Assembly (NCBI RefSeq): GCF_902506425.1
Contig: NZ_LR732469.1
Location: 620,001 to 684,000, forward strand
Length of the DNA stretch: 64,000 bases
Direction of reading: 5' to 3'
DNA from: Novosphingobium sp. 9U
GTDB lineage: Bacteria; Pseudomonadota; Alphaproteobacteria; Sphingomonadales; Sphingomonadaceae
Position 1 is the stretch's first letter, and each line of letters opens with the position of its first letter. This document shows, piece after piece, positions 49,204 through 63,655 of this stretch. Below the pieces are notes generated by a model. The model saw only the letters and a program-made list of their open reading frames with translations. It was not told where the DNA came from and made no database searches. A program made the position numbers and the translations under genes.

Positions 49204-50412
49204 ATGGACACGCAATTGCTGAACACGCCGACCCGCTACGTGCGCAATGCGATGGAAGACATCGGCATGATCACGGCACTGGACGAGTTCCTGAACCACC
49301 AGATTGTCGACACCTTCGCCTCCGTCAGCACTTCGGAACTGAGCTGGACCGAGAAGATCTGGACTGCGATTGTGCGCAAGGACGGCACTCTTGGCATCGA
49401 TTTCGGGCTCGGCCGCTACCACAACCGCGGCGTGCTCGATGGCTGGGCTGCCGTATCACGCGGCAGCGAACAGTGGACGGTGCGCGCCAATCGCGAGTTG
49501 CGTGACGATCCGCTCACCACCGAAGTGGGGCCGCTGAGCTATGAGATCATAGAGCCGCTGCGCCAGGTGCGTTTCGCGTGTGCCCGCAACGACCAGCAGC
49601 CAATCGCCTACGACATCACCTTCACCGCCGAGTTGCCACCCTTCTTCGAGGACCGCCACAAGCAGAGGGAGAAAGATGGCTTCCGCATTGGCTCTGACGT
49701 CATACGCTACCATCAGGTCGGGGTGCCGTCGGGCTGGGTGGAGCTCGAAGGTGAGCGGATCGAGATCAACCCCGATGATTGGACGCAGTATCGCGATCAT
49801 TCCTGGGGTACTCGGCTCGATGTCGGTGCGCACAATCCCGATATTCGCCCGACCTCCGACTTCGGCGACGTGAAATTCGGCGAAGGCGAATACGTGCTGA
49901 TCTGGAGCCCGTTCATGCTGGTTTCGCCGAGCGGCGAAAAGATCGCGTACCACATGTACTTCCAGTCCAAGCAGGGCCGCATCTTCTACTCATCCGGCTA
50001 TCGCAATCTTCCGGACGGCACGCAGGAGAAGATCGCCCGCGTTCGGCCCGAACTGCGCTTCGACGACGTGACGCGCCGACTGCTCGGCGGGCAATTGCAC
50101 TTCGACATGCTTCAGGGCGGATCGCACACGATCGAGGTGGAAGTGGTGGGTACCTCGGGCGTGCACCTCGGGCCCGGTCTCTATCTCGGCTTCGACGGGC
50201 GCAAGCACGGTTCGTGGCATGGTCCTCTGACGGTGGAGGGCGAGAAGTTCGACAACACGCTCGACCGCAAGACGCTGGAGCGCATCCGTCAGCTCCGGGA
50301 CTGCCCGATCAAGGTCACCGAAGGCGACTGGATCGGCTACGGCATCATGGAGACCATCATCCACGGCGAGCATCCCGACATGGGGCTCACCACCGCGAAT
50401 TCGCTGGTCTGA
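49204..50412 (+). CDS. Large hypothetical protein of a catabolic operon (AttH/CrtC-like in appearance)
   Basis: A 402-residue soluble protein starting at ATG 49204. It is beta-rich with conserved-looking blocks: GTLGIDFGLGRYHNRGVLDG, QPIAYDITFTAELPPFFED, DDWTQYRDHSWGTR and GLYLGFDGRKHGSWHGP. The RDHSWG block and the beta pattern remind me of the AttH/CrtC lipocalin-like hydratase fold, but I cannot confirm this. It sits between an EthD protein and an APH phosphotransferase in one operon, and a hydratase or ligand-binding role is possible. Confidence 0.75.
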   Translation: MDTQLLNTPTRYVRNAMEDIGMITALDEFLNHQIVDTFASVSTSELSWTEKIWTAIVRKDGTLGIDFGLGRYHNRGVLDGWAAVSRGSEQWTVRANRELRDDPLTTEVGPLSYEIIEPLRQVRFACARNDQQPIAYDITFTAELPPFFEDRHKQREKDGFRIGSDVIRYHQVGVPSGWVELEGERIEINPDDWTQYRDHSWGTRLDVGAHNPDIRPTSDFGDVKFGEGEYVLIWSPFMLVSPSGEKIAYHMYFQSKQGRIFYSSGYRNLPDGTQEKIARVRPELRFDDVTRRLLGGQLHFDMLQGGSHTIEVEVVGTSGVHLGPGLYLGFDGRKHGSWHGPLTVEGEKFDNTLDRKTLERIRQLRDCPIKVTEGDWIGYGIMETIIHGEHPDMGLTTANSLV

Positions 50413-50417
50413 CCGCG

Positions 50418-51401
50418 ATGGCGCGCGACACCGAGAAGCTGGCAGCGGGTCTTCGGGCCTGGCTGCCTCGCGGAGAGCGGATCACCGGGGTCAAGACCCT
50501 GTCCGCCGGTCACTCGAACGAGACTTACCTGGTTGAAGGGACCAATGAGATCCTGCGCATGCCGCCGTCGGAGGAAGGTTTGCTGCCGCCCTACGACATG
50601 GTGCGCCAGCATGCGGTCCTCTCCGCCGTCGCGGCCAACGCACCTGAGGTGCCGCTTCCGCCCGTGCTGGAACTTTGCGACGATCCGCGGGTGCTGGGTG
50701 ATCCCTTTTTCCTGATGGGTTGCATCAAGGGTGAAGCTTTCGAGTACAGCGTGCCCGAGTGGCTTGCCGCTGACCCGGACGCCGGCGCCGACCACGTCTG
50801 CCGCCAATGGTTCGATGCGATCATCGCGCTGCACAACATGCCCGCCTCGGCAATGCCACCCGGTGCACGAACGGTGCAGCAGGAGGCGCAGCACTGGCTG
50901 GAGGTCGCACGCGGGGCGGACTCGGTGCCGCCACTGATCTCAGTGCTGGAGGACCTCGCTGCGCGCCCGCCACGAACATCGGGTGCGCCGACGCCGGTGC
51001 ATGGTGATCCCAAGCACGGCAACTGCCTGTGGCACGAGGGCCAACTTACAGGGTTGCTCGACTGGGAAATGGCCCAAGTGTCGGAGCCGCTGCTGGACCT
51101 TGGCTACGTGTTGATGTTCCATGATCAGGGTGAGGCGTCGCTCGCCAACGCTGGCTTCGAGTTGCCGGGCTGGTGGTCGCCGCAACGCATGATCGACGAG
51201 TGGGAAGCCGGCACCGGCCGCACTGCCGTTGATGTGGCGCGCTATGGCGTGCTCGGCCAGGCCAAAGTGGCGGCGATCATCTCGGTGGGTGCGTTCCTGT
51301 TCAACTCGGGCCGCATCGCCGATCCACGCTTCCAGGCGTTCGGAGCGCTGATCCCATCCTATACCGCCTTGCTCGAACGGCGCGCCATGGCTGCTGGCTG
51401 A
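50418..51401 (+). CDS. APH-family phosphotransferase
   Basis: A 327-residue kinase-fold protein that starts five bases after the preceding stop. Motifs: LSAGHSNETYLVEG nucleotide loop, catalytic TPVHGDPKHGNCLWH and the metal-binding LLDWEMAQVSEPLLDLGYVL. It is the second APH protein of this region, and its closest relatives are the ACAD10/11-type acyl kinases rather than antibiotic kinases. It ends the EthD operon just before a strong terminator. Confidence 0.87.
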   Translation: MARDTEKLAAGLRAWLPRGERITGVKTLSAGHSNETYLVEGTNEILRMPPSEEGLLPPYDMVRQHAVLSAVAANAPEVPLPPVLELCDDPRVLGDPFFLMGCIKGEAFEYSVPEWLAADPDAGADHVCRQWFDAIIALHNMPASAMPPGARTVQQEAQHWLEVARGADSVPPLISVLEDLAARPPRTSGAPTPVHGDPKHGNCLWHEGQLTGLLDWEMAQVSEPLLDLGYVLMFHDQGEASLANAGFELPGWWSPQRMIDEWEAGTGRTAVDVARYGVLGQAKVAAIISVGAFLFNSGRIADPRFQAFGALIPSYTALLERRAMAAG

Positions 51402-51490: not shown

Positions 51491-51886
51491 TTATGCGGCT
51501 TCGATCTCGATCAGGTCGTTGCCGAACTCGATGAGTGCTGAGGCGTCGACGAGCACTGCGCGGACCTTGCCGGACGCGGGGCTCAGGACCTCGGTCTTGC
51601 GCCCGAGCACATCGACCAGAGCAATGAGATCGCCAGCAGCCACTTGTGCGCCTGCTTCGCAATGCGGTTCGAACAGACCGAGGTGCGGTGCCTTGACCCT
51701 CGCAACCTGAGGCACGTCCCTGACCTGCTTCGGCTCCGGCGGGCCCGCGAGCAGCGGGTTAGGACCACCCTCCTTGCGGGCAAGGAACATCGTCCAGTCG
51801 GCTGAGCGGAAGAACAGGTCCTTCAGCGAGGATCGCTCGAACTGCAGGAGCATCGCGCGAATCTCGTGAATGGGCATTGTCGTCAT
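51491..51886 (-). CDS. Biotinyl/lipoyl-like carrier protein lacking the modified lysine
   Basis: A 131-residue protein. The C-terminal half (about 63-130) is a biotinyl-type hammerhead: RVKAPHLGLFEPHCEAGAQV, GDLIALVDVL, SPASGKV. It aligns with the true BCCP of this cluster (61590-62108), but the lysine (VEVMKL there) is replaced by Gly95 (VDVLGRK), so it cannot be biotinylated at the normal place. The N terminus also resembles the BCCP N terminus. It overlaps the dikinase gene (ATGA) and is the last gene of that operon. A structural or docking role is the likely explanation. Confidence 0.8.
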   Translation of the reverse strand: MTTMPIHEIRAMLLQFERSSLKDLFFRSADWTMFLARKEGGPNPLLAGPPEPKQVRDVPQVARVKAPHLGLFEPHCEAGAQVAAGDLIALVDVLGRKTEVLSPASGKVRAVLVDASALIEFGNDLIEIEAA

Positions 51887-53604
51887 GAGTCCTCCAAAGC
51901 GACGAGGAGGGCCGGCAGAACCGGCTCCGTGATCATCCGACTCACGCCCGCGCGACGCGCGATGCGGGCGATCTCGGCGTTGGCGAGCCCGCTGCCGCGT
52001 GCAGCATCCTGACCCTGCAATGCCGCGGCGAGTTGCTCGTGCGTACCCTCCGCAAGCAGGCGGTCGACATCGATGCCGTCGTCGCTCTCCGCAGGGCGCA
52101 GCACTTCGACGGCCGAGCGCTCACGCGCCCAACCGATGAGACGCGACAGGCGCGCATCGTCCTGCTCCGAGGGGACCTGTGTCTCCAGTGCGCCGGCGTA
52201 GACCTTACCGGTGGCGCCATCGACCGTGACAGTCTGGCCCGCCTTCGCAACCGCGCCGGCACCGACACCGACGACACAAGGCCGTCCCAATGCGCGGCTG
52301 ACGACGGCAGCATGCGAAGTGGATCCGCCTTGCTCGGTGACGACTGCGCGCGCCGCGATCATGCCGTGGACGTCATCAGGGCTGGTCGTCGCGCGCACCA
52401 GGATCACCGCTTCGCCCGCAGCTGCGCGGCGCTCGGCCTCGTCCGAATCCGCGACCAGAACACCGGTGGCAACGCCGGGGCAAGCGCCCTCGCCGGTCGC
52501 CACGGTCTCAGCGCCGTCAGCCGCACCTGGCACCAGTCGTGGCAGCAGCAGCGTCGAGACCTGCTCAGCACTGACACGCGACAAAGCGGTGGCGGCATCG
52601 ATGCGGCCTTCGCTCACCATGTCGACGGCGATGCGCACGGCGGCCTCAGGCGCCCGCTTGGCCGAGCGCGACTGCAGCAGGTAGAGCTTGCCCGATTGCA
52701 CCGTGAATTCGATGTCCTGCACGTCGCCATTCTCGCGTTCGAGCATGTCGCTCGCCGCCAGCAATGCCGCGTGTGCCTGCGGCACATGCGCGTGCATGGC
52801 GTCGAGCGAGAGCGGCGTGAACTTGCCCGAGACCACATCCTCACCCTGCGCTCGTGGCAGGTACTCGCCATAAGGCGCGGGATCGCCCTGCAGCGGATTG
52901 CGACTGAATAACACGCCAGTGCCGCTCTGCTCGTCGAGGTTGCCGAACACCATGGCCTGGATGGTCACCGCGGTGCCCATGTCGTGCGCGATGTTGTTGT
53001 GATCACGGTAACGCCTCGCCCGGCGCGTGTTCCAGCTTTCGAACACTGCGTGGACCCCGCCCAGGAGCTGGCTTTGCACGTCCAGCGGGATCTCGCCGCC
53101 TGCCTTCGCGATCTCGCCACGCCACATCGCCGAGCCGCCCCCATGCTCCAGTTCGACCGGCTGCTTGAGCACGATCGCGCTGTAGAGCTCCAGAAAGCGT
53201 CGGTGCGTGTCGCAGGCGAAGTCGGCCAGCCCGGTCTCGGCCGCCAGTGCGGCCTCTCCGTCATCGTCGATGCCAAGGTTGAGCACCGTGTCCATCATGC
53301 CGGGCATCGAGATCGCCGCGCCCGATCGGATCGAGAGGAGCAACCGCTTGTCGCCGCCGCCAAAGGTGCGTCCGGTACGCTCCTGCAGCCAATTGAGGCC
53401 CTCCGCGATCTCCGCTTCCAAGCCCTCCGGCATGGCGCCGTGCTCCAGGTATGCGAGGCAGGCCTTGGTGGTGATCACGAAGGCCGGCGGCACGTCGAGG
53501 CCGAGGGCGGCCATGCGCGCCACCGACCAGGCCTTGCCGCCGATGAGCGCGCGGTCGGGCAGGCTGCTGCCGTCGAGCAGCGTGGTCCATTGCGCCATCG
53601 TCAT
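51883..53604 (-). CDS. Pyruvate-phosphate-dikinase-like kinase without a PEP-binding barrel
   Basis: A 573-residue enzyme. Residues 1-330 are the ATP-grasp domain of PPDK (IGGKAWSVARMAALGLDVPPAF, SIRSGAAISMPGMMDTVLNLG, GTGVLFSRNPLQGD, VQDIEFTVQSGKLYLLQSRSAKR). Residues 375-480 form the phospho-His swivel domain with H431 in GGSTSHAAVVSRALGRPCVVG. The C-terminal PEP/pyruvate barrel of PPDK (full length about 870) is absent. The pattern is shared with phenylphosphate synthase, rifampicin phosphotransferase and the aryl-ketone kinases of acv/hpe systems: ATP gives AMP and Pi while phosphate is passed via His to an acceptor. Confidence 0.9.
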   Translation of the reverse strand: MTMAQWTTLLDGSSLPDRALIGGKAWSVARMAALGLDVPPAFVITTKACLAYLEHGAMPEGLEAEIAEGLNWLQERTGRTFGGGDKRLLLSIRSGAAISMPGMMDTVLNLGIDDDGEAALAAETGLADFACDTHRRFLELYSAIVLKQPVELEHGGGSAMWRGEIAKAGGEIPLDVQSQLLGGVHAVFESWNTRRARRYRDHNNIAHDMGTAVTIQAMVFGNLDEQSGTGVLFSRNPLQGDPAPYGEYLPRAQGEDVVSGKFTPLSLDAMHAHVPQAHAALLAASDMLERENGDVQDIEFTVQSGKLYLLQSRSAKRAPEAAVRIAVDMVSEGRIDAATALSRVSAEQVSTLLLPRLVPGAADGAETVATGEGACPGVATGVLVADSDEAERRAAAGEAVILVRATTSPDDVHGMIAARAVVTEQGGSTSHAAVVSRALGRPCVVGVGAGAVAKAGQTVTVDGATGKVYAGALETQVPSEQDDARLSRLIGWARERSAVEVLRPAESDDGIDVDRLLAEGTHEQLAAALQGQDAARGSGLANAEIARIARRAGVSRMITEPVLPALLVALEDS

Positions 53605-54212
53605 TCCTCCCGCTCACGGCCCATGATGCGCAGCAGTTCTTCGTGCAGCTCGAACCAGACGGTGTGGTAGCTGTCTCGACGGATGTCGCTGACCCACTCG
53701 TGGTCGCCGTCTTCCGAGGCTTCCAGCGCCGCGAGGAGCTTGTCGGCGTAGTACTTCAGGCGCGGCAAACGGCTGGCAAGGCGCTGCAGGATCGGCTCGG
53801 CCTGCTCGTGCAAGCCCCCGAGCCGGTCGATCACCGCCTCGTCATGCGCCTTGTCGCTGTGATCGTTCGCCACTTTGGCGCCGCCCACGTCGAGAGTCTG
53901 CCAGTCGGTGATGATCTGCTTGAGCGTGCGATTGATCCGCTCGAAGCCCTCGTAGGCGCCGACGAACACCGCATCCTCACGCAGCGTCCCGAAGTGACGA
54001 GGGTAACGTGCCACCAGGGCCACGCCGGCAAGCGGCGTCAAGGCATAGGCGCCACGCGCCTCGACCATGCGGCCGGTGGCGACGGCGCTCTCGATCACCG
54101 CCTGCGCGTGCGCCTCGGGCACGCCGGCCAGCTTGGCGATCGCGGGCAGCGGAGCGTGGCGCTTGATGGCGGTTGCGTGCAGCACGAGGTCGCGCTCGTT
54201 CATGGCGGTCAT
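53601..54212 (-). CDS. Dikinase accessory protein with winged-helix-like N terminus
   Basis: A 203-residue protein whose ATG 54212 overlaps the stop of the swivel-protein gene and whose stop overlaps the dikinase start. Residues 5-75 look like a winged helix (LVLHATAIKRHAPLPAIAKLAGVPEAHAQAVIESAVATGRMVEARGAYALTPLA). The rest is helical (EGFERINRTLKQIITDWQTL; LHEQAEPILQRLASRLPRLKYYADKLLAALEA). A small third subunit also exists in phenylphosphate synthase. Position between the two phosphotransfer proteins suggests a structural subunit or substrate lid. Confidence 0.8.
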   Translation of the reverse strand: MTAMNERDLVLHATAIKRHAPLPAIAKLAGVPEAHAQAVIESAVATGRMVEARGAYALTPLAGVALVARYPRHFGTLREDAVFVGAYEGFERINRTLKQIITDWQTLDVGGAKVANDHSDKAHDEAVIDRLGGLHEQAEPILQRLASRLPRLKYYADKLLAALEASEDGDHEWVSDIRRDSYHTVWFELHEELLRIMGREREE

Positions 54213-54958
54213 GCCGCATCCTCCAGAACCCACACGCGTGCGACGCGTTCGACGCCCTGCTGGTAGTCTTCGGTGGTCTTGGCTGCAGCCGTGACCTCGA
54301 CGGCGATGCGATCGCCTTCACGGATCCCGGTGACCTTGGCGTTCATCACGCAAGGGATATTGTACTCGCGCGTCAGAATGCCGAGGTGCGATCTCACGGA
54401 GCCACCAGCACAGACGACGCCCGCGAACTGGTCGATGATCGGCGCCGTGAGGGTTCCGCCCGAGTCGTCTATGATGGCGATCGAGCCTTGCGGCACCCCG
54501 TTCGACAGCAGCTCCATCACGCGCTCGTTCGAGCGCACGTAGAGCGCGCGGCCGACCACGTCCTTGGCATGGCGCACGACGTTGTCGCCGATGCCTCGCA
54601 GCGCCCTGCCCTCGGCGTCCGTCTCGCCGGTGGGTGCATCCGGATGAGCGAAGCCGGCGCCCTCTTCTGCGGCCGAGCCGTCCGCCTTGTGTGCCTCTGG
54701 TCGCTCGACGACGGACACGCGCGCCGACCAGTCGAAGCGGTGGCCGCTGGCAAGAATACGCGCTTCGACGGCCTCTATATCCTCCCGTGTGACCAATCGA
54801 TCCGAGCCCGCGAAGACGAAGTCGTTCCAATCCTGTCCTGACTCGCGCAGACGCGCCCGCACCTTCTCACGCACGAGATCCAGCACCGCCTCAACCAACG
54901 GGGTGGCCGGCGGTTTGGCGTGCAGCACGTCGTCGATAGGCAATTTATCGCAGCCCAC
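54209..54958 (-). CDS. PEP-utilising-enzyme mobile (swivel) domain protein
   Basis: A 249-residue protein with GGGAGG upstream. The N-terminal 130 residues are of unknown type; residues 130-235 form a second phospho-His swivel domain with H191 in CAGGSVRSHLGILTREYNIPCVMN, typical of PEP synthase mobile domains. It is the first gene of the dikinase operon (swivel, accessory, dikinase, BCCP-like), all joined by ATGA overlaps. The system therefore has two possible phospho-His carriers. One may take phosphate from ATP and the other deliver it to the acceptor. Confidence 0.87.
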   Translation of the reverse strand: MGCDKLPIDDVLHAKPPATPLVEAVLDLVREKVRARLRESGQDWNDFVFAGSDRLVTREDIEAVEARILASGHRFDWSARVSVVERPEAHKADGSAAEEGAGFAHPDAPTGETDAEGRALRGIGDNVVRHAKDVVGRALYVRSNERVMELLSNGVPQGSIAIIDDSGGTLTAPIIDQFAGVVCAGGSVRSHLGILTREYNIPCVMNAKVTGIREGDRIAVEVTAAAKTTEDYQQGVERVARVWVLEDAA

Positions 54959-55009
54959 GATCCCTCCCGATCATTCTTGTGCCACCAAAATGACGCAAGC
55001 CTCAGCAGC

Positions 55010-55072
55010 TGTCAACATTATTGGATGAAATCGTTCGACGATCTTGACCGCTTTTATTGGCTCGAATAAGTC
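55010..55072. promoter_or_regulatory. Divergent promoter region with tandem GntR-type operators
   Basis: ATCGTTCGACGAT (55030-55042) is followed after one base by -35 TTGACC (55044-55049) and, 17 bases on, TAAGTC (55067-55072), facing the SurE gene. Directly before it, the weaker site ATTATTGGATGAA (55017-55029) is followed, on the reverse strand, after one base by TTGACA (55010-55015), facing the dikinase operon. Each promoter thus has its own operator at the same spacing. Confidence 0.65.
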
Positions 55073-55101
55073 CCGGCGAACAACAATCGGGAGGAATGTC
55101 G

Positions 55102-55875
55102 ATGTCTCAGGATCCACCCCGCGTGCTGCTCGTCAACGATGACGGCATCGACGCGCCAGGACTCGTCATGCTGGAGCAGGTGGTGCGCGGGTTCACCGAC
55201 GACATCTGGGTGGTCGCGCCGGACGAAGAACGTTCGGGTGCCGGGCACTCGTTCTCGACCACGCTGCCGATCCGCGTCAAGCAGCGCGACGAGCGACACT
55301 TCGCGGTCAAGGGCACGCCGACGGATTGCGCTTTGCTGGCGATTTACGAGTTGATCGAAGGCAAGCGCCCCGACGTGCTGATCTCGGGCATCAATCGCGG
55401 TCCGAACCTGGCCGAGGACATCACCTATTCGGGCACGGCTTCGGCGGCGATGGAGGGGGCCTTGCTCGGCATCCCCGCCATCGCGCTCAGCCAGTGCTTC
55501 CGTCCGCCCGCCGCGGTGCCGTGGGACAATGCCGAGCGTTATGCCGGCGAGGTGATCGAGAAGCTGCTGCGCTTCGATTGGAAGCCTGGCATGTTCATCA
55601 ACGTCAACTTCCCAGAGTGCCCGGCCGACCAGGTCACCGGCATGCGCGTGACCGAGCAGGGCCAGCGCCCGCCCGGCGCCTTCATCCCCGAGAAGCGCGT
55701 CGATGCCCGGCATTTTCCGTACTACTGGGTCAAGATCGCGCTACCCGCCGGCGGCCATGCGCCGGGCAACGACTTGCAGGCGATGCTCGATCGCGAGATC
55801 TCGATCACGCCCATGCAGCTCGACATGACTAGCCGTGCGGCGATCCCTGACTTGCAGGAGTTGTTCGCGGCCTAA
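55102..55875 (+). CDS. SurE-family phosphatase
   Basis: A 257-residue protein from ATG 55102 (GGAGG seven bases upstream). The N-terminal RVLLVNDDGIDAPGLVMLEQV gives the two metal-binding Asp residues of SurE. PDEERSGAGHSFS (Ser ligand), SGINRGPNLAEDITYSGTASAAMEG (Asn ligand) and INVNFPE follow. SurE proteins are 5'/3'-nucleotidases and general phosphomonoesterases. Here the gene is divergent from the dikinase operon and shares its operator region. It is not next to pcm or rpoS, as housekeeping surE often is. A pathway phosphatase that removes the activating phosphate is the best inference. Confidence 0.87.
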   Translation: MSQDPPRVLLVNDDGIDAPGLVMLEQVVRGFTDDIWVVAPDEERSGAGHSFSTTLPIRVKQRDERHFAVKGTPTDCALLAIYELIEGKRPDVLISGINRGPNLAEDITYSGTASAAMEGALLGIPAIALSQCFRPPAAVPWDNAERYAGEVIEKLLRFDWKPGMFINVNFPECPADQVTGMRVTEQGQRPPGAFIPEKRVDARHFPYYWVKIALPAGGHAPGNDLQAMLDREISITPMQLDMTSRAAIPDLQELFAA

Positions 55876-55913
55876 GCCTTGGCGGACATTCCGCCACTCT
55901 TCACCCATCTCAC

Positions 55914-55953
55914 CACCTTCGTCATACCCGCAAAAGCGGGGGTGACGAAGGTG
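55914..55953. terminator. Extended hairpin between convergent SurE and thiolase genes
   Basis: An 11-base stem CACCTTCGTCA / TGACGAAGGTG encloses an inner CCCGC-AAAA-GCGGG stem. There is no T-run. The GTCAT-CCCGC-loop-GCGGG-TGAC layout resembles short palindromic repeats scattered in alphaproteobacterial genomes, so it may be a REP-like unit that also protects the 3' ends of both messages. Confidence 0.65.
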
Positions 55954-55964
55954 AAGGAGACGGT

Positions 55965-57188
55965 TCAGTCTCGCGCCAGGATCGTCACGGCGGACATGCC
56001 ATCTTCCACGCCGTAGAACCCGCCGGAATTCTCTGCCACACCGATCCGCGCGCCTTCGACCTGGCGCTGTCCGGCCCGGCCGCGCAGCTGCGTGACCAAC
56101 TCGTGGATCTGCGCCGCACCCGTCGCGCCGAGCGGGTGCCCCTTCGACACCAGCCCGCCCGAGACGTTGACCGGCACCCGGCCGCCTAGCGCGGTATCGC
56201 CCAGCTCTGCCGAAATTCCGGCTTCGCCCGGCGCGCACAGGCCGAGCGCTTCGGTCTGGATCATCTCGCCGATCGAGCTGGCGTCATGCACTTCGGCGAA
56301 GTCGACGTCCTCCGGTCCGATCCCCGCGCGTGCATAAGCAAGCGTGGCTACCTTGCGCGTGACGTGGTTGGCATAGTCGTCGCAAGCCCGGTTGCTGCCG
56401 GTGCGGTTCTCGGCCGCGAGAACCCGGATCGGCTCGCCGGAGAAGCGCTTGGCCATCTCGGCCGAGCAGACGATCACCGCCGCCGCACCGTCACTGATCG
56501 GCGCGCACATGGGGTTGGTCAGCGGCCAGGCGACTTGCGGAGCGGCGAGGATCTCCTCGACGCTCATCGGCTCGCGATATTGGGATAACGGGTTGAACTG
56601 CGAGTGGTTGTGGTCCTTCGACGCCACCGCCGCGATCTGCGCCTGCGTCGAGCCGTACGTGCCCATGTGCAGTCGCGCCTGCGCCGCATAGGCCTCCATC
56701 AACACGTTCGGGCTGGTCGAGACTTTGTCCGCGGGCACAGGCTCGAGCAAGTCGCGCGTACGCTCCAGATACCCCTGCGCCTCGACGAGGTCGCGCGGCT
56801 GCTGGAACACTGCGAAGCGCTTGGCCCGATCGTCGCTATACAGCTTCTCCACCCCGACCACGAGCGCCATCTCGGCCAAGCCGGCGCGTACGTGATCTAC
56901 CGCGAGGTGCAGCCCGACAGTCGAGCTGGCACAGGCCGCCTCGACATGGAACCCGCGCACACCGGCGATGCCGAGCGGCCGCAGCGCATATTCGCCGGGG
57001 ATCGACATTTCGCCGGCAAAAAACCCCTGGATGACATTGGCGTAGACCGCCATGTCGACTTGCTCGCCCGCGAGCCCGGCATCCTCGAGCGCGAGGCGGA
57101 CGGCCGCTTGCGTCAGTTGCTCGTGCGTCTTGTCGAGGTGCCGGCCAAAGGGCGTCATGCCGACGCCCAAGATCACCGCCTCGCGCAT
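55965..57188 (-). CDS. Thiolase family protein (SCP-2/acetyl-CoA acetyltransferase type)
   Basis: A 407-residue thiolase-fold enzyme. The nucleophile is C86 in EAACASSTVGLHLA. Later motifs are VDFAEVHDASSIGEMIQTEALGLC (His) and NVSGGLVSKGHPLGATGAAQIHELV (GHPxGATG), of the SCP-2 thiolase branch. Its ATG overlaps the stop of the acyl-CoA synthetase gene. In the proposed pathway it would cleave a 3-oxoacyl-CoA (aroylacetyl-CoA) with CoA, giving acetyl-CoA and an aroyl-CoA. It is the last gene of the carboxylase operon. Confidence 0.9.
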   Translation of the reverse strand: MREAVILGVGMTPFGRHLDKTHEQLTQAAVRLALEDAGLAGEQVDMAVYANVIQGFFAGEMSIPGEYALRPLGIAGVRGFHVEAACASSTVGLHLAVDHVRAGLAEMALVVGVEKLYSDDRAKRFAVFQQPRDLVEAQGYLERTRDLLEPVPADKVSTSPNVLMEAYAAQARLHMGTYGSTQAQIAAVASKDHNHSQFNPLSQYREPMSVEEILAAPQVAWPLTNPMCAPISDGAAAVIVCSAEMAKRFSGEPIRVLAAENRTGSNRACDDYANHVTRKVATLAYARAGIGPEDVDFAEVHDASSIGEMIQTEALGLCAPGEAGISAELGDTALGGRVPVNVSGGLVSKGHPLGATGAAQIHELVTQLRGRAGQRQVEGARIGVAENSGGFYGVEDGMSAVTILARD

Positions 57189-58738
57189 CAGATCGCCCTT
57201 CCCGCCGCTGCCCAGTGCACTTTACGCAATTCGGAGCGCAGCACCTTGCCCGCGTTCGAACGAGGAAGGCTGGCGATAACCTCGATGCGCTTGGGCGTCT
57301 TCACCGGTCCAAGCCGCTCGCGTGCCTCAGCCAGCAAGGCTGTGACATCGACCATGCAGCCCTCGCGCGGTTCGACGACGGCGACAACGGCCTCCCCCCA
57401 CTTCTCGTCCGGAACGCCGATGACAGCGCAGTCCTGAACCTGCGGGTGCGCCATCAGCGCCTGCTCGACTTCCGCGGGGTAGACGTTGAAGCCACCCGAG
57501 ATGATCATGTCCTTCTTGCGATCGACGACGTAGAACCAGCCCTGCTCGTCGCGCACGCCGATGTCGCCGGTATGATGCCAGCCAAACGCCGAGACCTCTT
57601 CCGTCGCCTGCGGGTTCTTGTAGTAGCCTTGCATCACCAGCGGCCCACGGACGACGATCTCGCCGCGTTCGCCTGGGCGAAGGATACGGCCCTCATCGTC
57701 CATGATCTCGACGATCGAGAGCAGGTTCGCGCGCCCGCAGCTGCCAGGATGCGCCAGCTCGCCGTCGGGACTCAAGTGCTCGTGCGGCGGCATCGCGGTC
57801 ACGCACATCGGCGCCTCAGTCTGGCCGAAGCTGGCGTTCATCACCGGGCCGAGCACGTCAATGGCTTCCTTGAGCCGGTCGAGCGACATCGGTGCGCCCG
57901 CGTAGGAGATGTACTCCAGGCTGGAAAGGTCCGCTTCGCGCACACCCGGCTCGGCCAGCAGCATGTAGATCGCGGTCGGCGGCAGGAACATATAGGTGAC
58001 GCGGTGGCGTTCGATCGCCTGCAGCACCATGGGAGGCTCGAAGCGCGGCAGCACCACGACGGTCCCGCCCAGCGCCATGCTGGCGAGCGCGAGCGGCCCG
58101 GCGGCATGCGTCATCGGCGCCGCGACGAGATTCACCGGAGGGCCCTTCATCGGCATCGAGGCGACCAGGCTGGAGACGAGCGCCTGCCAGTTGCCATTGG
58201 AAAGCATCACGCCCTTAGAGCGGCCGGTCGTGCCGCCGGTGTTCGCCAGGAATGCCAGCTCGTCAGCCGCACCCGATCGGCGCTGGGCAACGGGGTCGTC
58301 GCTTTCTACCAGCATGTCGCCGAGGAACGCGTCAGCTTCAGCAAACGGCACATCGAGCGCGATGAAGCGACGGATATTTGGGCACTGCGTCCGAAAGCTG
58401 GCGACGCGTTCCGCGACCTCGGAGTGGATGAACAGCGTGTCGACGTCGAGCAGGTCGAGCAGGTAGGCGTTCTCGTCGACCGAGGCGCGGTTGTTCGCCA
58501 TGACCCAAACGCCATCCGCGCGAAGGATGCCCAGGATGGCTTCGAATGCGCGCGCGCTGTTGCCGCTGAGCACCGCGGCATGCCCGCCAGCGGGGAAGCC
58601 GTTCGCGATCAAGGCACGCGCAATGGCGTCGCTGCGCGCCTTGACCTCACCGTAGGTGCTGACGGTCTCGCCCTCGACCATGCACGGGCGATCGCCGCCC
58701 ATGCGCGCACCCCGGTCGAAGAAGTCGATCATCCGCAT
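57188..58738 (-). CDS. AMP-binding acyl-CoA synthetase
   Basis: A 516-residue ligase of the ANL family. The P-loop AFLANTGGTTGRSKGVMLS is at about 162-180, followed by SFGQTEAPMC, HTGDIGVRDEQGWFYVVDRKKDMIISGGFNVYPAEVE and the catalytic C-terminal Lys in RSNAGKVLRSELRK. It activates a carboxylic acid with ATP to acyl-AMP and then acyl-CoA. Placed between a biotin-dependent carboxyltransferase and a thiolase, it most likely activates the carboxylated (3-oxo) acid. It overlaps the thiolase gene as TGATG. Confidence 0.9.
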   Translation of the reverse strand: MRMIDFFDRGARMGGDRPCMVEGETVSTYGEVKARSDAIARALIANGFPAGGHAAVLSGNSARAFEAILGILRADGVWVMANNRASVDENAYLLDLLDVDTLFIHSEVAERVASFRTQCPNIRRFIALDVPFAEADAFLGDMLVESDDPVAQRRSGAADELAFLANTGGTTGRSKGVMLSNGNWQALVSSLVASMPMKGPPVNLVAAPMTHAAGPLALASMALGGTVVVLPRFEPPMVLQAIERHRVTYMFLPPTAIYMLLAEPGVREADLSSLEYISYAGAPMSLDRLKEAIDVLGPVMNASFGQTEAPMCVTAMPPHEHLSPDGELAHPGSCGRANLLSIVEIMDDEGRILRPGERGEIVVRGPLVMQGYYKNPQATEEVSAFGWHHTGDIGVRDEQGWFYVVDRKKDMIISGGFNVYPAEVEQALMAHPQVQDCAVIGVPDEKWGEAVVAVVEPREGCMVDVTALLAEARERLGPVKTPKRIEVIASLPRSNAGKVLRSELRKVHWAAAGRAI

Positions 58739-58754
58739 GGCGCGCGCCTGCCCC

Positions 58755-60212
58755 TCAGCGCCGCATCGAGAGTTCGAGCTGGCTGGATCGCACCTGCACC
58801 AGTGGCAAGCTCGCGACCTTCATCAGCCTCGCGACCTGATCGAGCTCGGGCGACGACAGCGTCGGGTAGTCGGGCCGCGGCGCGCCGGACAGCCGCATGC
58901 GATCGATGTCCGTGGCTGGCACCAGTGCGCGCAGCAGCAGTTCATCGTCATCTCCGCCGGTACCGTGCCGGCGGTGCAGCTCGGCGCGATCGGGCTGCTC
59001 GGGCGGGCTCGCCAGGATCTCCTTGGCGCGTGGCTTGGACATGATGCGGTCCATCACGTCGGCATCGATTGGCGCCACGGGTTCGCCGTAGAAGCCTGCC
59101 GCGTACTGGATCACCTCGTCGGGCACCACCGAGTAGCGTTGGCCGGTGACGATGTTGAGCACCGCCAGCGTGCCGACCAGCTGCGCGAACGGCGTCGCCA
59201 TGCCGGGATAGCCCAGCTCGCGCCGGACGCGGGCCACTTCCTCCAGCACGTCAGGCAAGCGGTCGAGCATATTCTGCTGCACCAGCTGCGCGCGCAACGT
59301 GCCCATCATGCCGCCCGGGATCTGGTGCTTGAGCGAGGTCACGTCGTACTCGAAATGCTGGTTCACCAGGAACCCGGCCGCCTTGCCGACGCGCTCGAAG
59401 TGATCAGCGACCGGCTTGAACATTGACGTATCCAGGTTGTGGGTATGACCCAACATCTCGACGTTCTTGGCCATGATCTCGACCGAGGGGATCGACGGCC
59501 CGTTCGCCATCGGCCGCACCGCGGTGTGGATCGTGGTGACGCCGAACTCGATCGCATCGATGTACGACTTGGCCGACTGGCCGAGCATGTTGTTGGCATG
59601 CATCTCGATCGGCTTGCCGCGCGCTTTGGCCTTGATCGCCGGCACCAGCGTGGAAATCCGATCGCGATCGAGCACGCCACCAGTGTCGTAGAGCAATAGG
59701 CTGTCGACCTCATCCAAGGCAGAGAGCTTGTCCGCCTTGTCCGCGTAGTAGGCATCGTCGTGCACCGGCGACAGCGTGAACAGCATCGTGCCCGCCACCT
59801 GGCAGCCATACCCCTTCGCGACCTTGGCCAAGCGGTGCATCTTGTCGATGTTGAACAGCACGTCATAGAGCCAGAAGCTGCGCATGCCGTGGGCGCAGAG
59901 CCGATCCACCCAAATGTCCATCAGCGCATCGGGCGTGAAGCCGAAAGTCACCGATCCGTTCGAGCGGCACCCGGCACGCAGCGGCGTCTCGGGCATCGCC
60001 TTGACCAACATGTCGAGCCCGGCCCAGGGGTCCTCCTGGCAGTGGCGGATCAGCACTTCGAACAGCGAGGAGCCGGCCAGGCTGATGATCTGATAGCCGG
60101 TCTTGTCGATCAGCGGCGCGACGGGCAGCGCCATGCCGGCCTGCATGCGCATGCCCCACAGGCTCTGCTGGCCATCGCGCAGCGTTTCGTCGAGGAAGTT
60201 GATGTGCGCCAA
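58755..60212 (-). CDS. Biotin-dependent carboxyltransferase (pyruvate carboxylase/OadA-type)
   Basis: A 485-residue TIM-barrel carboxyltransferase starting at TTG 60212 (GGAG eight bases before), giving AHINFLDETLRDGQQSLWG. DETLRDGQQS holds the metal-binding Asp; IEMHANNMLGQS is the HxxN-type metal site; LKHQIPGGMMGTLRAQL is the conserved domain also found in oxaloacetate decarboxylase. Unlike OadA it has no C-terminal biotinyl domain; a separate BCCP gene is in the operon. It would transfer CO2 from carboxybiotin to a ketone-like acceptor. The acceptor pocket is not readable from sequence. Confidence 0.88.
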   Translation of the reverse strand: MAHINFLDETLRDGQQSLWGMRMQAGMALPVAPLIDKTGYQIISLAGSSLFEVLIRHCQEDPWAGLDMLVKAMPETPLRAGCRSNGSVTFGFTPDALMDIWVDRLCAHGMRSFWLYDVLFNIDKMHRLAKVAKGYGCQVAGTMLFTLSPVHDDAYYADKADKLSALDEVDSLLLYDTGGVLDRDRISTLVPAIKAKARGKPIEMHANNMLGQSAKSYIDAIEFGVTTIHTAVRPMANGPSIPSVEIMAKNVEMLGHTHNLDTSMFKPVADHFERVGKAAGFLVNQHFEYDVTSLKHQIPGGMMGTLRAQLVQQNMLDRLPDVLEEVARVRRELGYPGMATPFAQLVGTLAVLNIVTGQRYSVVPDEVIQYAAGFYGEPVAPIDADVMDRIMSKPRAKEILASPPEQPDRAELHRRHGTGGDDDELLLRALVPATDIDRMRLSGAPRPDYPTLSSPELDQVARLMKVASLPLVQVRSSQLELSMRR

Positions 60213-60217
60213 AGGGG

Positions 60218-61585
60218 CTACTCCGCTGCCATGCGCTGGTCGGTGAGCAAATCCTGCTCCAGCCAACGGGTATGGATCTGATTGGACCGGAAGTGCTCGT
60301 CGCGAAGAATCTCGCTGTGGAGCGGAATTGTGGTGGGCACGCCTTCGACCTCGAAGCTGTCGAGTGCGCCGATCAGCTTGTCGATTGCAGCGTCACGCGT
60401 CTCGGCATGGACGATCAGCTTGCCGATCATGCTGTCGTAGAAGGGCGGGATGCTCGCGCCTTCGCTGATGTGACTGTCGAGGCGGATGCCCTCGCCTTCG
60501 GGCGGACGCCAGCGAGTTACAGTGCCCGGAACCGGCACGAAGTCGCGCGCCGGATCCTCGGCATTGATGCGGCATTCGATGGCATGGCCGGTCAGGACCA
60601 CGTCCTCCTGGCGGACAGACAAACCTTCGCCCCTGGCGACGCGCAGCTGCTCGCGCACTAGGTCGCGACCAGTGACCATCTCGCTGACCGGATGCTCGAC
60701 CTGGATGCGCGCGTTGACTTCGATGAAATAGATCTCTTGGCGCAGGACATCGTAGAGGAACTCGCACGTGCCCGCATTGCGGTAGTTGACGCTCTTGGCG
60801 AGGTTCACCGCGGCGGCGTGCAGCTGACTGCGCAATGCGTCAGGCATGGCGACGCAAGGCGCCTCCTCGATCACCTTCTGATAGCGGCGCTGCACCGAGC
60901 AGTCGCGCTCACCGAAGTGGACGACCTCGCCCCGCCCGTCGCCGACCAGTTGCACTTCGACGTGGCGCGCTTCGGGCACGAAGCGTTCCATGAACAAGGT
61001 GCCGTCATTGAACGCCGCTTGCGCCTCGGCACTGGCACGGTGGAAGCCAGCTTCGACTTCGCCAGGACCGTTGACGATCACCATGCCGCGCCCACCGCCG
61101 CCGGCCGCGGCCTTGAGCAGGACGGGGTAGCCAAGGCCGTCGGCGATACGCCGAGCGTCGGCGGCCGAAGCGATCTCGCCGCTGCCGGGCACCAGCGGCA
61201 CTCCGGCGGCGGCCGCCATCTCGCGGGCGCGCAGTTTGTCGCCGAGCGCGTCGATCATGTCGGCTTCGGGGCCGACGAAGGTAATGCCGTGCTCGACGCA
61301 AAGGCGCGCCAGTTCAGCACGTTCCGAAAGAAAACCATAGCCGGGGTGCAGCGCGTCGCAGCCGCTGGCCTTGGCGGCCTGGACGACGAGCCGCGCATCG
61401 AGGTAGCTCTTGGCGGCGGGACCGGGACCAAGCACCAGCTTGCGGTCGGCAAGCTGCGCGGCCATGCTGTCACGATCGGCATCGGACACGCCGATCACCG
61501 TCTCCAGGTTGAGACCTTGCGCGGCGCGTAGCACCCGCAGCGCGATCTCGCCGCGGTTGGCGATGAAGAGGCGGGACAGGGCCAC
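60218..61585 (-). CDS. Biotin carboxylase subunit
   Basis: A 455-residue ATP-grasp enzyme. N-terminal LFIANRGEIALRVLRAA, ALHPGYGFLSE, the glycine-rich loop LKAAAGGGGRGM, GERDCSVQRRYQKVIEEAP, and FIEVNARIQVEHPVSEMVTG are the full biotin carboxylase set. It carboxylates biotin on the carrier protein using ATP and bicarbonate. Length equals AccC. Its genes sit between the BCCP and carboxyltransferase genes (gaps of 4 and 5 bases). It is dedicated to this pathway rather than to fatty acid synthesis, judging by context. Confidence 0.92.
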   Translation of the reverse strand: MALSRLFIANRGEIALRVLRAAQGLNLETVIGVSDADRDSMAAQLADRKLVLGPGPAAKSYLDARLVVQAAKASGCDALHPGYGFLSERAELARLCVEHGITFVGPEADMIDALGDKLRAREMAAAAGVPLVPGSGEIASAADARRIADGLGYPVLLKAAAGGGGRGMVIVNGPGEVEAGFHRASAEAQAAFNDGTLFMERFVPEARHVEVQLVGDGRGEVVHFGERDCSVQRRYQKVIEEAPCVAMPDALRSQLHAAAVNLAKSVNYRNAGTCEFLYDVLRQEIYFIEVNARIQVEHPVSEMVTGRDLVREQLRVARGEGLSVRQEDVVLTGHAIECRINAEDPARDFVPVPGTVTRWRPPEGEGIRLDSHISEGASIPPFYDSMIGKLIVHAETRDAAIDKLIGALDSFEVEGVPTTIPLHSEILRDEHFRSNQIHTRWLEQDLLTDQRMAAE

Positions 61586-61589
61586 CGCG

Positions 61590-62108
61590 TCAGGCCTTCT
61601 GGATCACGAACAGCGGCTGACCGGCCGGGACCAAGTCGCCGTCGTTGGCCAGAACCCGCACGATCTTGCCTGGGGCCCCGGCGCGCACCGCGGTGAACAG
61701 CTTCATGACCTCGACCAGGCAGACCTCGGTCTCGGCCGAGACGGTCGCGCCGACTTCGACGTACGGCGCTGCGCCAGGTTTCGGCGAACGGTAAAAAGTG
61801 CCGAGATACGGAGCGTTCACGAAGACTTCGCCGTCCGCCGCCGTTGGCGCTGCGTTGCTGGACATAGGTGCGGCCGCAACCGGGGCCGTTGCATTGGGCG
61901 AAGCTATGGCAGGTGCAGCCGATGCCGCGCTCACCGAAACTCGCGCGCCGTCCAGCCCCGGCGCCTGTGAGTCATGCGAGAGATAGACTTCCAGCTCTCC
62001 GCAGCGGGCATGCAGCTCACGCAGGCCTGAGGTGCGGAACTCCTCGACCAGCAGCTCGAATTCGCCCAGCTCCGGAGCGGTTGATTTCTGATCGTCGTTG
62101 CCGCTCAT
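61590..62108 (-). CDS. Biotin carboxyl carrier protein
   Basis: A 172-residue protein with an N-terminal domain, an Ala/Pro-rich linker (about 58-92) and a C-terminal biotinyl domain (95-172). The biotinylated lysine is K136 in VEVMKLF; the usual motif is EAMKM. APYLGTFYRSPKPGAAPYVEVG matches AccB-type carriers. Its ATG overlaps the stop of the upstream 516-residue gene. It shuttles carboxybiotin between the biotin carboxylase and the carboxyltransferase encoded downstream. Confidence 0.9.
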   Translation of the reverse strand: MSGNDDQKSTAPELGEFELLVEEFRTSGLRELHARCGELEVYLSHDSQAPGLDGARVSVSAASAAPAIASPNATAPVAAAPMSSNAAPTAADGEVFVNAPYLGTFYRSPKPGAAPYVEVGATVSAETEVCLVEVMKLFTAVRAGAPGKIVRVLANDGDLVPAGQPLFVIQKA

Positions 62109-63655
62109 GCGCGTGCACTCCGAATGGTTTCGACTTCTTTGCGAGTCAGTCCCGCCCCCTTACCCGCCAGCGGCGAGCCCTCCTGCTCCAGGCGATAGAG
62201 CGCCTGAACCGCTTCGGCTTGCGGCGCGTACTTGGCGCTCGTGTCGCAGATGAAGCGGTACTCGGGCGCCATCTGTGCCGGCTTCGATGCCTGCGCCCTG
62301 GCGTTGTACTCGGCCAGGGTGAGGCGGCCTGCCGTGGTGGTGTAGAGGTCCTGCTTGGGTCCGTGATGGGTGATACCAGGGCCGATCGGCGCCAGTTTCG
62401 GCGCCTCCCCCCCGCGCTGCAGCACCGAGTAGGGGATCTGGGAGAGATAACGCACCGGATTGTTGTTGTGCTGCATCATCGCGTATCCGCTCAGCTGTTG
62501 GCTCGGCAAGGAGACCAGCCCGACCAGTTCGCCCAGGAAATCGCGGCCGAACTCATCATTGAACAGGCTGCGGAAACGATCGGCGCGCGGGTCGATCGTC
62601 ATCCAGTCGTTGACATCGTAGACACCGGCGATGTGGGCGATCTCCTTGATCAGCGAGAAGTAGACCAGCGCGCCCGCGTCCATCATCTCGTCGCGAGACC
62701 AGCCGGCCATGCGCTTCCAAAGCTCGACTGTCGCCTTGCGGATGCGATCGGTCAGGTCCTCGAAGGTAGACGCCAGTTCCTCGGCGGAGCCCATTCCGAC
62801 CGGGATGTAGCCGCCCGACAGCGCGTCCGACGTGTAGAGGCCGACGCCGGTCAGCTTGTCGGCGGTGAATTCGGGCCGAGATTCGAAGCTGCCCCAGTCA
62901 TCCATGAGGTAGAAGTGACAACCGGTGGCTTCCATCGTGACGGTCAGGTTGCTGAAGGGGATGTCGCCGGCAACGCCGTCGAGCCAGGGATAATCGCCTT
63001 CCGCCAGATCCGAAAAGTCGCGGATGATCATCTCGCGGTCGGCCGCGAGCTTGTACGGTCCCGAATTGTTGAGCGCGCAGCGGCTTTCGCACGATACCAG
63101 GAAGCCGTACTGCGAAATGGTCGCCAGGAAGGTCTGTGCGGCAGCACCGAGGCGGTCACCCGGCTTGCAGGGCAGCAGCTCCGAGTGGAAGCGCTGCACC
63201 CGGCGCTCGGGCAGAGACTGCACGCGCTGGCCGAACTCGCGTGCGTTGAGGTGGCCATCTTCGCGCTGCTGCGCCAGCTTGAAGCGGCGCCAGAAGTCCA
63301 TGACGTAAGCAACGTCCTCAGCCGCATCGTCCGGGCCAAGCATGCCGAAGTTGATCAGGATTTCGCGGCCGATAAGATAGAACGTCGGCAGCGCCCAACC
63401 GGGCAGATTGCCCAGCTTGCCGCCAAGCAGGCGAGTGCGGTCACCGATCTCCTCGGCGGGCATCACGGCCTCGGCTTTACGCAGCAGCTCCGGGTAGCGG
63501 TAGAAGCAGCACAAGTACGACAGCAGCATGTACGAGGGTACGGGGAACAGCTTCGACTCTTGCACAGTGCGGGTCACGCACAGCCAGTAGGTATCGTCGC
63601 CGATCGTCTGGATCGCATTGTTGGCTTCCAGCAAGCGAACGTAGTCGGTCATCAT
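62105..63655 (-). CDS. Large unknown protein leading the carboxylase operon
   Basis: A 516-residue soluble protein (ATG 63655 or 63652, AGGG just upstream). I do not recognise a domain. Visible features: FPVPSYMLLSYLCCFYRYPELLRKAE near residue 37, a His/Cys/Trp-containing middle (SQYGFLVSCESRCALNNSGPYKLAADREM), GVGLYTSDALSGGYIPVGMGS, and a His-rich C-terminal stretch (MMQHNNNPVRYLS, GPGITHHGPKQDLYTTTAGRL). It is the first gene of an operon with BCCP, biotin carboxylase and carboxyltransferase, joined by ATGA, so it is probably an extra carboxylase subunit or the enzyme that handles the phosphorylated substrate. Confidence 0.8.
   Translation of the reverse strand: MMTDYVRLLEANNAIQTIGDDTYWLCVTRTVQESKLFPVPSYMLLSYLCCFYRYPELLRKAEAVMPAEEIGDRTRLLGGKLGNLPGWALPTFYLIGREILINFGMLGPDDAAEDVAYVMDFWRRFKLAQQREDGHLNAREFGQRVQSLPERRVQRFHSELLPCKPGDRLGAAAQTFLATISQYGFLVSCESRCALNNSGPYKLAADREMIIRDFSDLAEGDYPWLDGVAGDIPFSNLTVTMEATGCHFYLMDDWGSFESRPEFTADKLTGVGLYTSDALSGGYIPVGMGSAEELASTFEDLTDRIRKATVELWKRMAGWSRDEMMDAGALVYFSLIKEIAHIAGVYDVNDWMTIDPRADRFRSLFNDEFGRDFLGELVGLVSLPSQQLSGYAMMQHNNNPVRYLSQIPYSVLQRGGEAPKLAPIGPGITHHGPKQDLYTTTAGRLTLAEYNARAQASKPAQMAPEYRFICDTSAKYAPQAEAVQALYRLEQEGSPLAGKGAGLTRKEVETIRSARA

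Follow-up and report, generated by a model that had tools for sequence, protein, structure and literature searches.

A candidate hydroxy-ketone cassette of Novosphingobium sp. 9U pairs a predicted four-part dikinase with an altered biotin carboxyltransferase

Does a gene cluster that joins a dikinase to a biotin carboxylase in Novosphingobium sp. 9U belong to the known pathways for lignin-derived ketones, or to a different system? The cluster, a cassette of about eleven genes, is located at 51491-63655 of a 64-kb window (the whole stretch of DNA analysed) on contig NZ_LR732469.1. The systems to compare it with are Hpe (hpeHICBADEF of Rhodococcus rhodochrous GD02) and Acv (acvABCDEF of Sphingobium SYK-6), by which acetovanillone and 4-hydroxyacetophenone are reported to be phosphorylated by a two-part dikinase, carboxylated by a three-part biotin enzyme, and dephosphorylated (PMC9618137, PMC12167813, PMC13101465). 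The best reading of the sequences examined here is that the cassette works like Hpe and Acv but is not a member of that system. We consider it probable that it serves the catabolism of a hydroxy-methyl-ketone, which would be phosphorylated, carboxylated, dephosphorylated, activated with coenzyme A (CoA), and thiolysed.

The cassette consists of two tight minus-strand operons, one encoding k249, k202, k573, and bccpX, and the other u516, biotin carboxyl carrier protein (BCCP), biotin carboxylase (BC), carboxyltransferase (CT), an acyl-CoA ligase, and a thiolase. A gene for a SurE-type phosphatase is located between them on the opposite strand. An earlier reading of this DNA, made from its letters alone (hereafter the sequence-only reading), had named these genes; all of them were found on the strands it gave, and the Pfam and NCBIfam families that were matched agreed with its assignments, with BCCP recognized by BLAST and motif.

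We searched for the role of u516, which gave no match in Pfam (E 0.001) or NCBIfam (E 1e-5), and none of note in the PDB by single-sequence or profile searches. Fusions among its relatives point to the kinase. At locus L031, u516 and k202 form one 722-aa reading frame, and at L032 a u516 paralogue is fused in one frame with a swivel domain. In Rhodococcus opacus B4, swivel, u516-like, and k202-like parts occur in that order in a single 793-aa 'phosphoenolpyruvate (PEP)-utilizing enzyme', which as a query retrieved at least 438 relatives among the candidates scored, many of them actinobacterial. A profile of 41 fused relatives matched u516 and k202 with an hhalign probability of 100% (E 4.7e-41), the u516 alignment including the L031 fusion. 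On the strength of these fusions with winged-helix or swivel partners, and of the profile match to the fused 794-aa family, u516 is, as judged from sequence, a subunit of the kinase. The kinase would then comprise four proteins and carry two phosphohistidine domains. The gene order k249-u516-ligase-k202-k573-BCCP-BC-CT, found at the diverged loci L023, L024, L030, L069, and L070 (partially at L026 and L082) and on two Rhodococcus plasmids, likewise puts u516 among the kinase genes.

Both predicted phosphohistidines are conserved. The k249 motif GG(S/T)xRSHLxIL retains its histidine in 27 of 28 rows (26 distinct), the remaining row being masked by N, and the swivel histidine of k573 is present in 22 of 22 rows (21 distinct, 4 of these being relatives outside the cassette). 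The two histidines may form a relay, or one swivel may be regulatory; we keep both readings. As to k202, the winged-helix accessory proposed earlier is retained as probable: fused relatives gave weak, sub-threshold TrmB/MarR matches, and k202 itself had no Pfam match. Across loci, k202 is conserved together with the cassette. An AlphaFold2 model of u516 built from 42 sequences (mean predicted local distance difference test score 82, predicted template modelling score 0.84, with residues 9-33 poor) contains helices, then a six-strand region at 195-275, and then long helices. As a lead only, this make-up recalls the rifampin-binding domain, described as a four-helix apex, an alpha/beta sandwich, and a helix bundle (PMC4844700).

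With the two-component dikinases HpeHI, CreHI, and PpsAB, and with the single-chain rifampin phosphotransferase, the cassette kinase has in common an ATP-grasp domain, a phosphohistidine swivel, and a predicted separate substrate-binding part; like RPH/HpeHI-type dikinases in general, it has no pyruvate barrel. It differs from them in an added swivel on the ATP subunit, in separate genes for swivel and substrate part, and in the order swivel-u516-winged helix when these are fused. Relative to HpeHI it is a kinase of four proteins with two histidine swivels, and u516 is apparently unrelated to the HpeH-like A subunit of acv-type clusters (hhalign probability 0.4%; no BLAST match at E 0.01). The fused swivel-u516-winged-helix family matched that A subunit in the swivel only (87%).

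Two other assignments were tried and rejected. A place for u516 in the carboxylase disagrees with its relatives, which are located between kinase genes or fused to kinase proteins, and with three sister carboxylase loci that have neither kinase nor u516. P0126 (1383 aa) was at first taken for a fusion of the whole kinase, but it holds the swivel-u516 unit twice, as a tandem duplication.

Several observations concern the wider kinase family. Fused swivel-u516-winged-helix 'PEP-utilizing enzymes' were recorded at L034 9320-11701 and as P0121-P0240. In Methylibium petroleiphilum PM1 (L035 9917-12451 and L037), the plasmid carries an 844-aa gene like that of pyruvate, phosphate dikinase (PPDK) among microcompartment shell genes; about 27 kb from that gene, u516-, swivel-, and k202-like proteins are encoded by separate genes. 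The product of k573 (51883-53604) scored 675.6 bits against NCBIfam NF004531 (cut-off 456), which labels it 'pyruvate, phosphate dikinase', yet no PEP/pyruvate domain was found in it; many genes of this kind may bear a wrong name.

Whether these genes are inherited together was determined across genomes. A pattern scan of a collection of 84,980 species, which covers close relatives only, revealed 29 named loci encoding u516 relatives, in hosts including Novosphingobium, Sphingobium, Sphingopyxis, Croceicoccus, Aquisediminimonas, and alpha- and gammaproteobacterial metagenome-assembled genomes. The sphingomonad loci keep an identical gene order as far as their contigs extend. At about 50% identity the cassette is also found on plasmids of R. 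oxybenzonivorans S2-17 and R. pyridinivorans P23, where it additionally holds an OB-fold protein, a thiolase, and an annotated tyrosine phosphatase. In total 34 distinct loci were examined (L075 repeats the DNA of L007, and L076 that of L022; each pair is counted once), which are related loci and not independent events. Of these, 25 extend for 10 kb or more downstream of u516, and 23 of the 25 contain the k573 gene; the genomes of the two exceptions, L012 and L031, carry it elsewhere (71% and 61%) with k249 and k202 beside it, and that of L031 holds a second, fuller cassette set. The cassette SurE was found in 18 of the 34 loci, the remainder being mostly diverged or short.

Among 297 sampled Sphingomonadales genomes, u516 matches occurred in seven, five of them strong, and in all five a short k573 of at least 51% identity is located on the same contig (two of the five, G269 and G191, are the genomes of L007 and L022). 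The k573 matches listed also include a short 48% relative without a u516 match (G050) and a frame interrupted at a contig end (G014). The occurrence is patchy, and the cassette is probably mobile. A chance neighbourhood of two pathways was ruled out by the recurrence of the set and its order in several genera.

We then compared the carboxylase with known enzymes. CT matched PYC_OADA with 98.2 bits (cut-off 27) and HMGL-like with 29.1 bits (cut-off 29), and its barrel aligns to those of oxaloacetate decarboxylase, pyruvate carboxylase, and transcarboxylase 5S, with which it has these domains and the use of BCCP and BC in common. We take the metal ligands of such enzymes to be Asp, Lys, His, and His, the lysine being carbamylated. 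CT differs at two of these positions, with Tyr188 (codon 59690-59688) in place of the lysine and Asn220 (codon 59594-59592) in place of the second histidine of HxH, in the numbering of the 498-aa reading. In an alignment of 55 of the 57 rows collected (two were too short, and 3 of the 55 were left ungrouped), Asp-Tyr-His-Asn occurs in 26/26 cassette rows and in 3/3 sister rows from clusters with no kinase, Asp-Glu-His-His in 3/3 rows (the two Rhodococcus cassettes and L039), and Asp-Lys-His-His in 20/20 rows (7 acv-type, 10 UPF0261-type, and 3 outgroup). A tree of 52 rows separates a clade of 32 rows with the window's CT (support 100/99) from one of 17 acv- and UPF0261-type rows (100/100); the acv-type rows do not form one clade, and BT01 falls outside.

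The biotin-bearing lysine of BCCP is kept in 43 of 43 rows listed (two repeats). The claim that bccpX lacks this lysine was borne out, the slot being occupied by G or D in 5/5 rows. The bccpX gene stands in the slot after k573, where the diverged loci L023, L030, L069, and L082 have a true BCCP, and it may be a retired BCCP copy kept for structure. A role in the kinase was considered for bccpX and rejected; in locus L067, which has no kinase, a 31% relative likewise comes after BC.

A further cluster type combines a UPF0261 (Tm-1-like) protein with BCCP, BC, CT, and a HAD phosphatase (L038 4936-10321, L040 5886-11368, L051, L052, L054, L055, L057, L060, L062, and L063). Its CT adjoins the acv type in the tree, and these loci gave no match to acv-type or window-type kinase queries; a possible role for UPF0261 is that of the kinase otherwise missing from a related ketone route. 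Such clusters are found on plasmids of S. yanoikuyae YC-JY1 and P. putida YC-AE1, which we take to be bisphenol degraders.

Protein comparison with Acv and Hpe, proposed with the sequence-only reading, was made with acv-type stand-ins chosen by synteny (six sphingomonad clusters, four of them with no BC gene found beside the others, and Rhizobium leguminosarum BT01), not with the SYK-6, GD02, and EbN1 sequences themselves. CT is 36-38% identical to the stand-ins (BT01, L053, L059), BC 50-57% (BT01, L053), and BCCP 36-49% (BT01, L053, L059). The k573 protein is weakly similar in its ATP-grasp part (23-28%, and 40% over 50 residues to BT01) and 37-41% identical in its swivel. By BLAST, u516, k202, and SurE had no match in BT01, L053, and L059, and ligase and thiolase had none in the acv-type set, which held one ligase and no thiolase. 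The cassette thus has a dikinase, a three-part biotin carboxylase with a PYC/OADA-type CT, and a phosphatase, all common to Hpe and Acv, besides a CoA step as in Hpe. The two-component HpeH/HpeI kinase, a CT in the acv/Hpe clade, and a HAD-type phosphatase were not found; SurE stands where those systems use the latter, and thiolase where they use a hydrolase. Because u516, k202, and SurE are unmatched and CT belongs to another clade, we place the cassette outside Hpe/Acv. The likeness claimed earlier holds for the logic and for a co-inherited enzyme set. Of the 'extra components' also claimed, k202 and SurE are indeed unmatched, as is u516, which is better regarded as part of the kinase than as an extra.

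The reported carboxylase HpeCBA has a similar general make-up, acts on 4-phosphoacetophenones, and is about 50% identical to XccABC of Aromatoleum aromaticum EbN1, a biotin ketone carboxylase with genes near hpeHI homologues (PMC9618137); because of that identity XccABC should fall with the acv-type clade. We found neither this cassette nor a four-part dikinase described in the open-licence literature, and no lysine-less carboxyltransferase of such type either.

On the basis of gene content and domains, we infer the following reactions, order, and substrate, preferred because they make the simplest pathway that uses every gene. The four-protein dikinase would phosphorylate the substrate's hydroxyl: k573 would bind ATP and charge its histidine, and u516 would both hold the substrate and serve as the dock for the k249 swivel, which would hand over the phosphate, while k202 would help in assembly or act as an accessory. 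BCCP, BC, and CT would then carboxylate the methyl group adjoining the carbonyl, and SurE would remove the phosphate. The CoA ligase would activate the resulting beta-keto acid, which the thiolase would split into acetyl-CoA and an acyl-CoA, perhaps an aroyl-CoA. For the dephosphorylation, the NDDG motif of SurE is present in 21/21 rows (19 distinct), and a phosphatase recurs as the annotated tyrosine phosphatase of the Rhodococcus plasmids. More tentatively, and with rather less confidence than we would need to assert it, we suggest that a dikinase passing phosphate between two separate swivels before the substrate, together with a CT devoid of the canonical carbamyl-lysine metal site, makes up a second, independently assembled route to carboxylate phosphorylated ketones, in which one of the four-part dikinases, a widespread and uncharacterised class, is first given a role.

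Several findings weigh against this pathway. Kinase and carboxylase operons are apart in the L012 genome, where k573, k249, and k202 lie elsewhere. The thiolase here has no OB-fold partner, whereas the Rhodococcus plasmids have one. A relative of the kinase at L034 adjoins a P450 and alcohol and aldehyde dehydrogenases, with no carboxylase. No 4-hydroxybenzoate 3-monooxygenase (pobA) exceeded the cut-off in this genome (vanillate enzymes were not searched for), so a route ending in 4-hydroxybenzoate would have to do without the usual next enzyme. The sister CTs belong to clusters L066-L068, which gave no match to queries of either kinase type (in control loci the acv-type queries matched 20/20 pairs), and one of them, L068, holds a second CT of this genome, near two thiolases, a ChsH2-type OB protein, two acyl-CoA dehydrogenases, and a P450. 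Because of these sister clusters and the L068 neighbours, phosphorylation need not precede the action of this CT type, nor need its substrates be phenols. The altered metal site of CT could mean altered chemistry. The second CT, of the Tyr/Asn type, is at 8937-10394 of L068 (G000:C1:2351000-2369900).

Among substrate classes, phenolic aryl ketones rank as the likeliest, although they fall somewhat short of an even chance; they are argued from the phenolic substrates of the relatives. Other hydroxy-ketones are kept in play because of the missing pobA match, the sister carboxylase with no kinase, and the neighbours of the kinase relative. There is a substantial possibility, if a minority one, that the same enzymology acts on an aliphatic or terpenoid/steroid hydroxy-ketone instead of a phenol, with which the genes around L068 and L034 and the linkage of p385 and an APH-type kinase in some genomes agree. 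It is opposed by the characterised split relatives HpeHI, CreHI, and PpsAB, which are reported to act on phenols (PMC12167813), and by the presence of the cassette in R. oxybenzonivorans S2-17, reported as a benzophenone-3 degrader, where no link of the cassette to that degradation is established. A LigB match in this genome sits, by eye, in an apparent meta-cleavage cluster and gave no lead on the cassette.

It is improbable that the kinase phosphorylates the ketone enol, as PEP synthase does with pyruvate, and that the enol phosphate primes carboxylation. The k573 protein is indeed closer to PPDK than to the acv-type ATP-grasp subunit, and CT is altered at positions that serve the enolate in known enzymes; however, there is no pyruvate barrel, carboxylation of an enol phosphate would first require its dephosphorylation, and the CT site is identical in clusters with no kinase. 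A regulatory role, with kinase genes that control the pathway and do not feed it, seems equally unlikely to us. It would follow VadK (Rv1127c), a PPDK-derived kinase which we take to resemble k573 in its short length and domain set, with no PEP/pyruvate domain. VadK is described as a histidine kinase with a regulatory role, which phosphorylates itself and has metabolic enzymes as interaction partners, and the available part of that description mentions no such cassette (PMC13400623). The co-inherited swivel protein and u516, which relatives have fused as a single PEP-utilizing protein, instead suit a small-molecule dikinase. Plain orthology with Acv/Hpe, for which the similar logic and homologous CT, BC, and BCCP speak, is very improbable, being contradicted by the separate CT clade, the unmatched u516, k202, and SurE, and metal-ligand positions that differ in every cassette row.

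The features are collected in Table 1. Junctions within the operons range from a 34-base overlap (between CT and BC, where the true CT start may lie downstream of the predicted one) to a 16-base gap, and the predicted starts of SurE, k202, and CT are chosen readings. Pfam matches are at E 0.001.

Table 1. Genes of the cassette and two genes of its flank, in window coordinates
Gene	Position	Strand	Description
p385	49204..50412	+	Rv3169-family; NF053593 347.6 bits, cut-off 150
APH-fold small-molecule kinase	50418..51401	+	adjoins p385; PF01636 113.6 bits
bccpX	51491..51886	-	131-aa BCCP-like protein without biotinyl lysine; PF00364 (Biotin_lipoyl) 25 bits
k573	51883..53604	-	573 aa; ATP-grasp and first His-swivel; PPDK_N and PEP-utilizers; PPDK-like without PEP/pyruvate barrel
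k202	53601..54212	-	202 aa, probable winged-helix kinase subunit; start from 4-base overlap with k249, 54203 also possible
k249	54209..54958	-	249 aa, second His-swivel protein of the kinase; PF00391 (PEP-utilizers) 37.1 bits
SurE-type phosphatase	55096..55875	+	divergent; PF01975 200.5 bits
SCP2-type thiolase	55965..57188	-	Thiolase_N, Thiolase_C_1
Acyl-CoA ligase (AMP-forming)	57188..58738	-	PF00501 231 bits
CT	58755..60251	-	PYC/OADA-type carboxyltransferase; 498-aa reading, true start maybe near 60212
BC	60218..61585	-	biotin carboxylase; Pfam; NF006367 613 bits, cut-off 597
BCCP	61590..62108	-	biotinyl lysine present (EVMK); identified through BLAST and motif
u516	62105..63655	-	516 aa; predicted fourth kinase subunit, probable substrate-binding subunit

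The flank on the p385 side encodes p385, the APH-type kinase, an EthD protein, a GntR regulator, and a TonB receptor; p385 is linked to the cassette in 8 and the APH kinase in 6 of the 34 distinct loci. Rv3169-family relatives also adjoin dikinase genes on Rhodococcus plasmids. The nearest identified gene upstream of u516 is yidC, and the far flank (YidC, UvrB, and others) gave no lead on the cassette.

The general logic of the cassette is already known; what appears new relative to the known lignin-ketone pathways is the four-part kinase and the different carboxylase active site. The cassette gives a likely role and composition to genes annotated as 'hypothetical', 'PEP-utilizing enzyme', or 'pyruvate, phosphate dikinase'. 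It also suggests that the products of short 'PPDK' genes may depend on a swivel and a substrate subunit encoded separately. It makes testable the questions of dikinase substrates, of a two-phosphohistidine relay, and of how a biotin carboxyltransferase works when two of its canonical metal ligands are replaced. The conversion of lignin and pollutants could also profit from a new route of ketone carboxylation.

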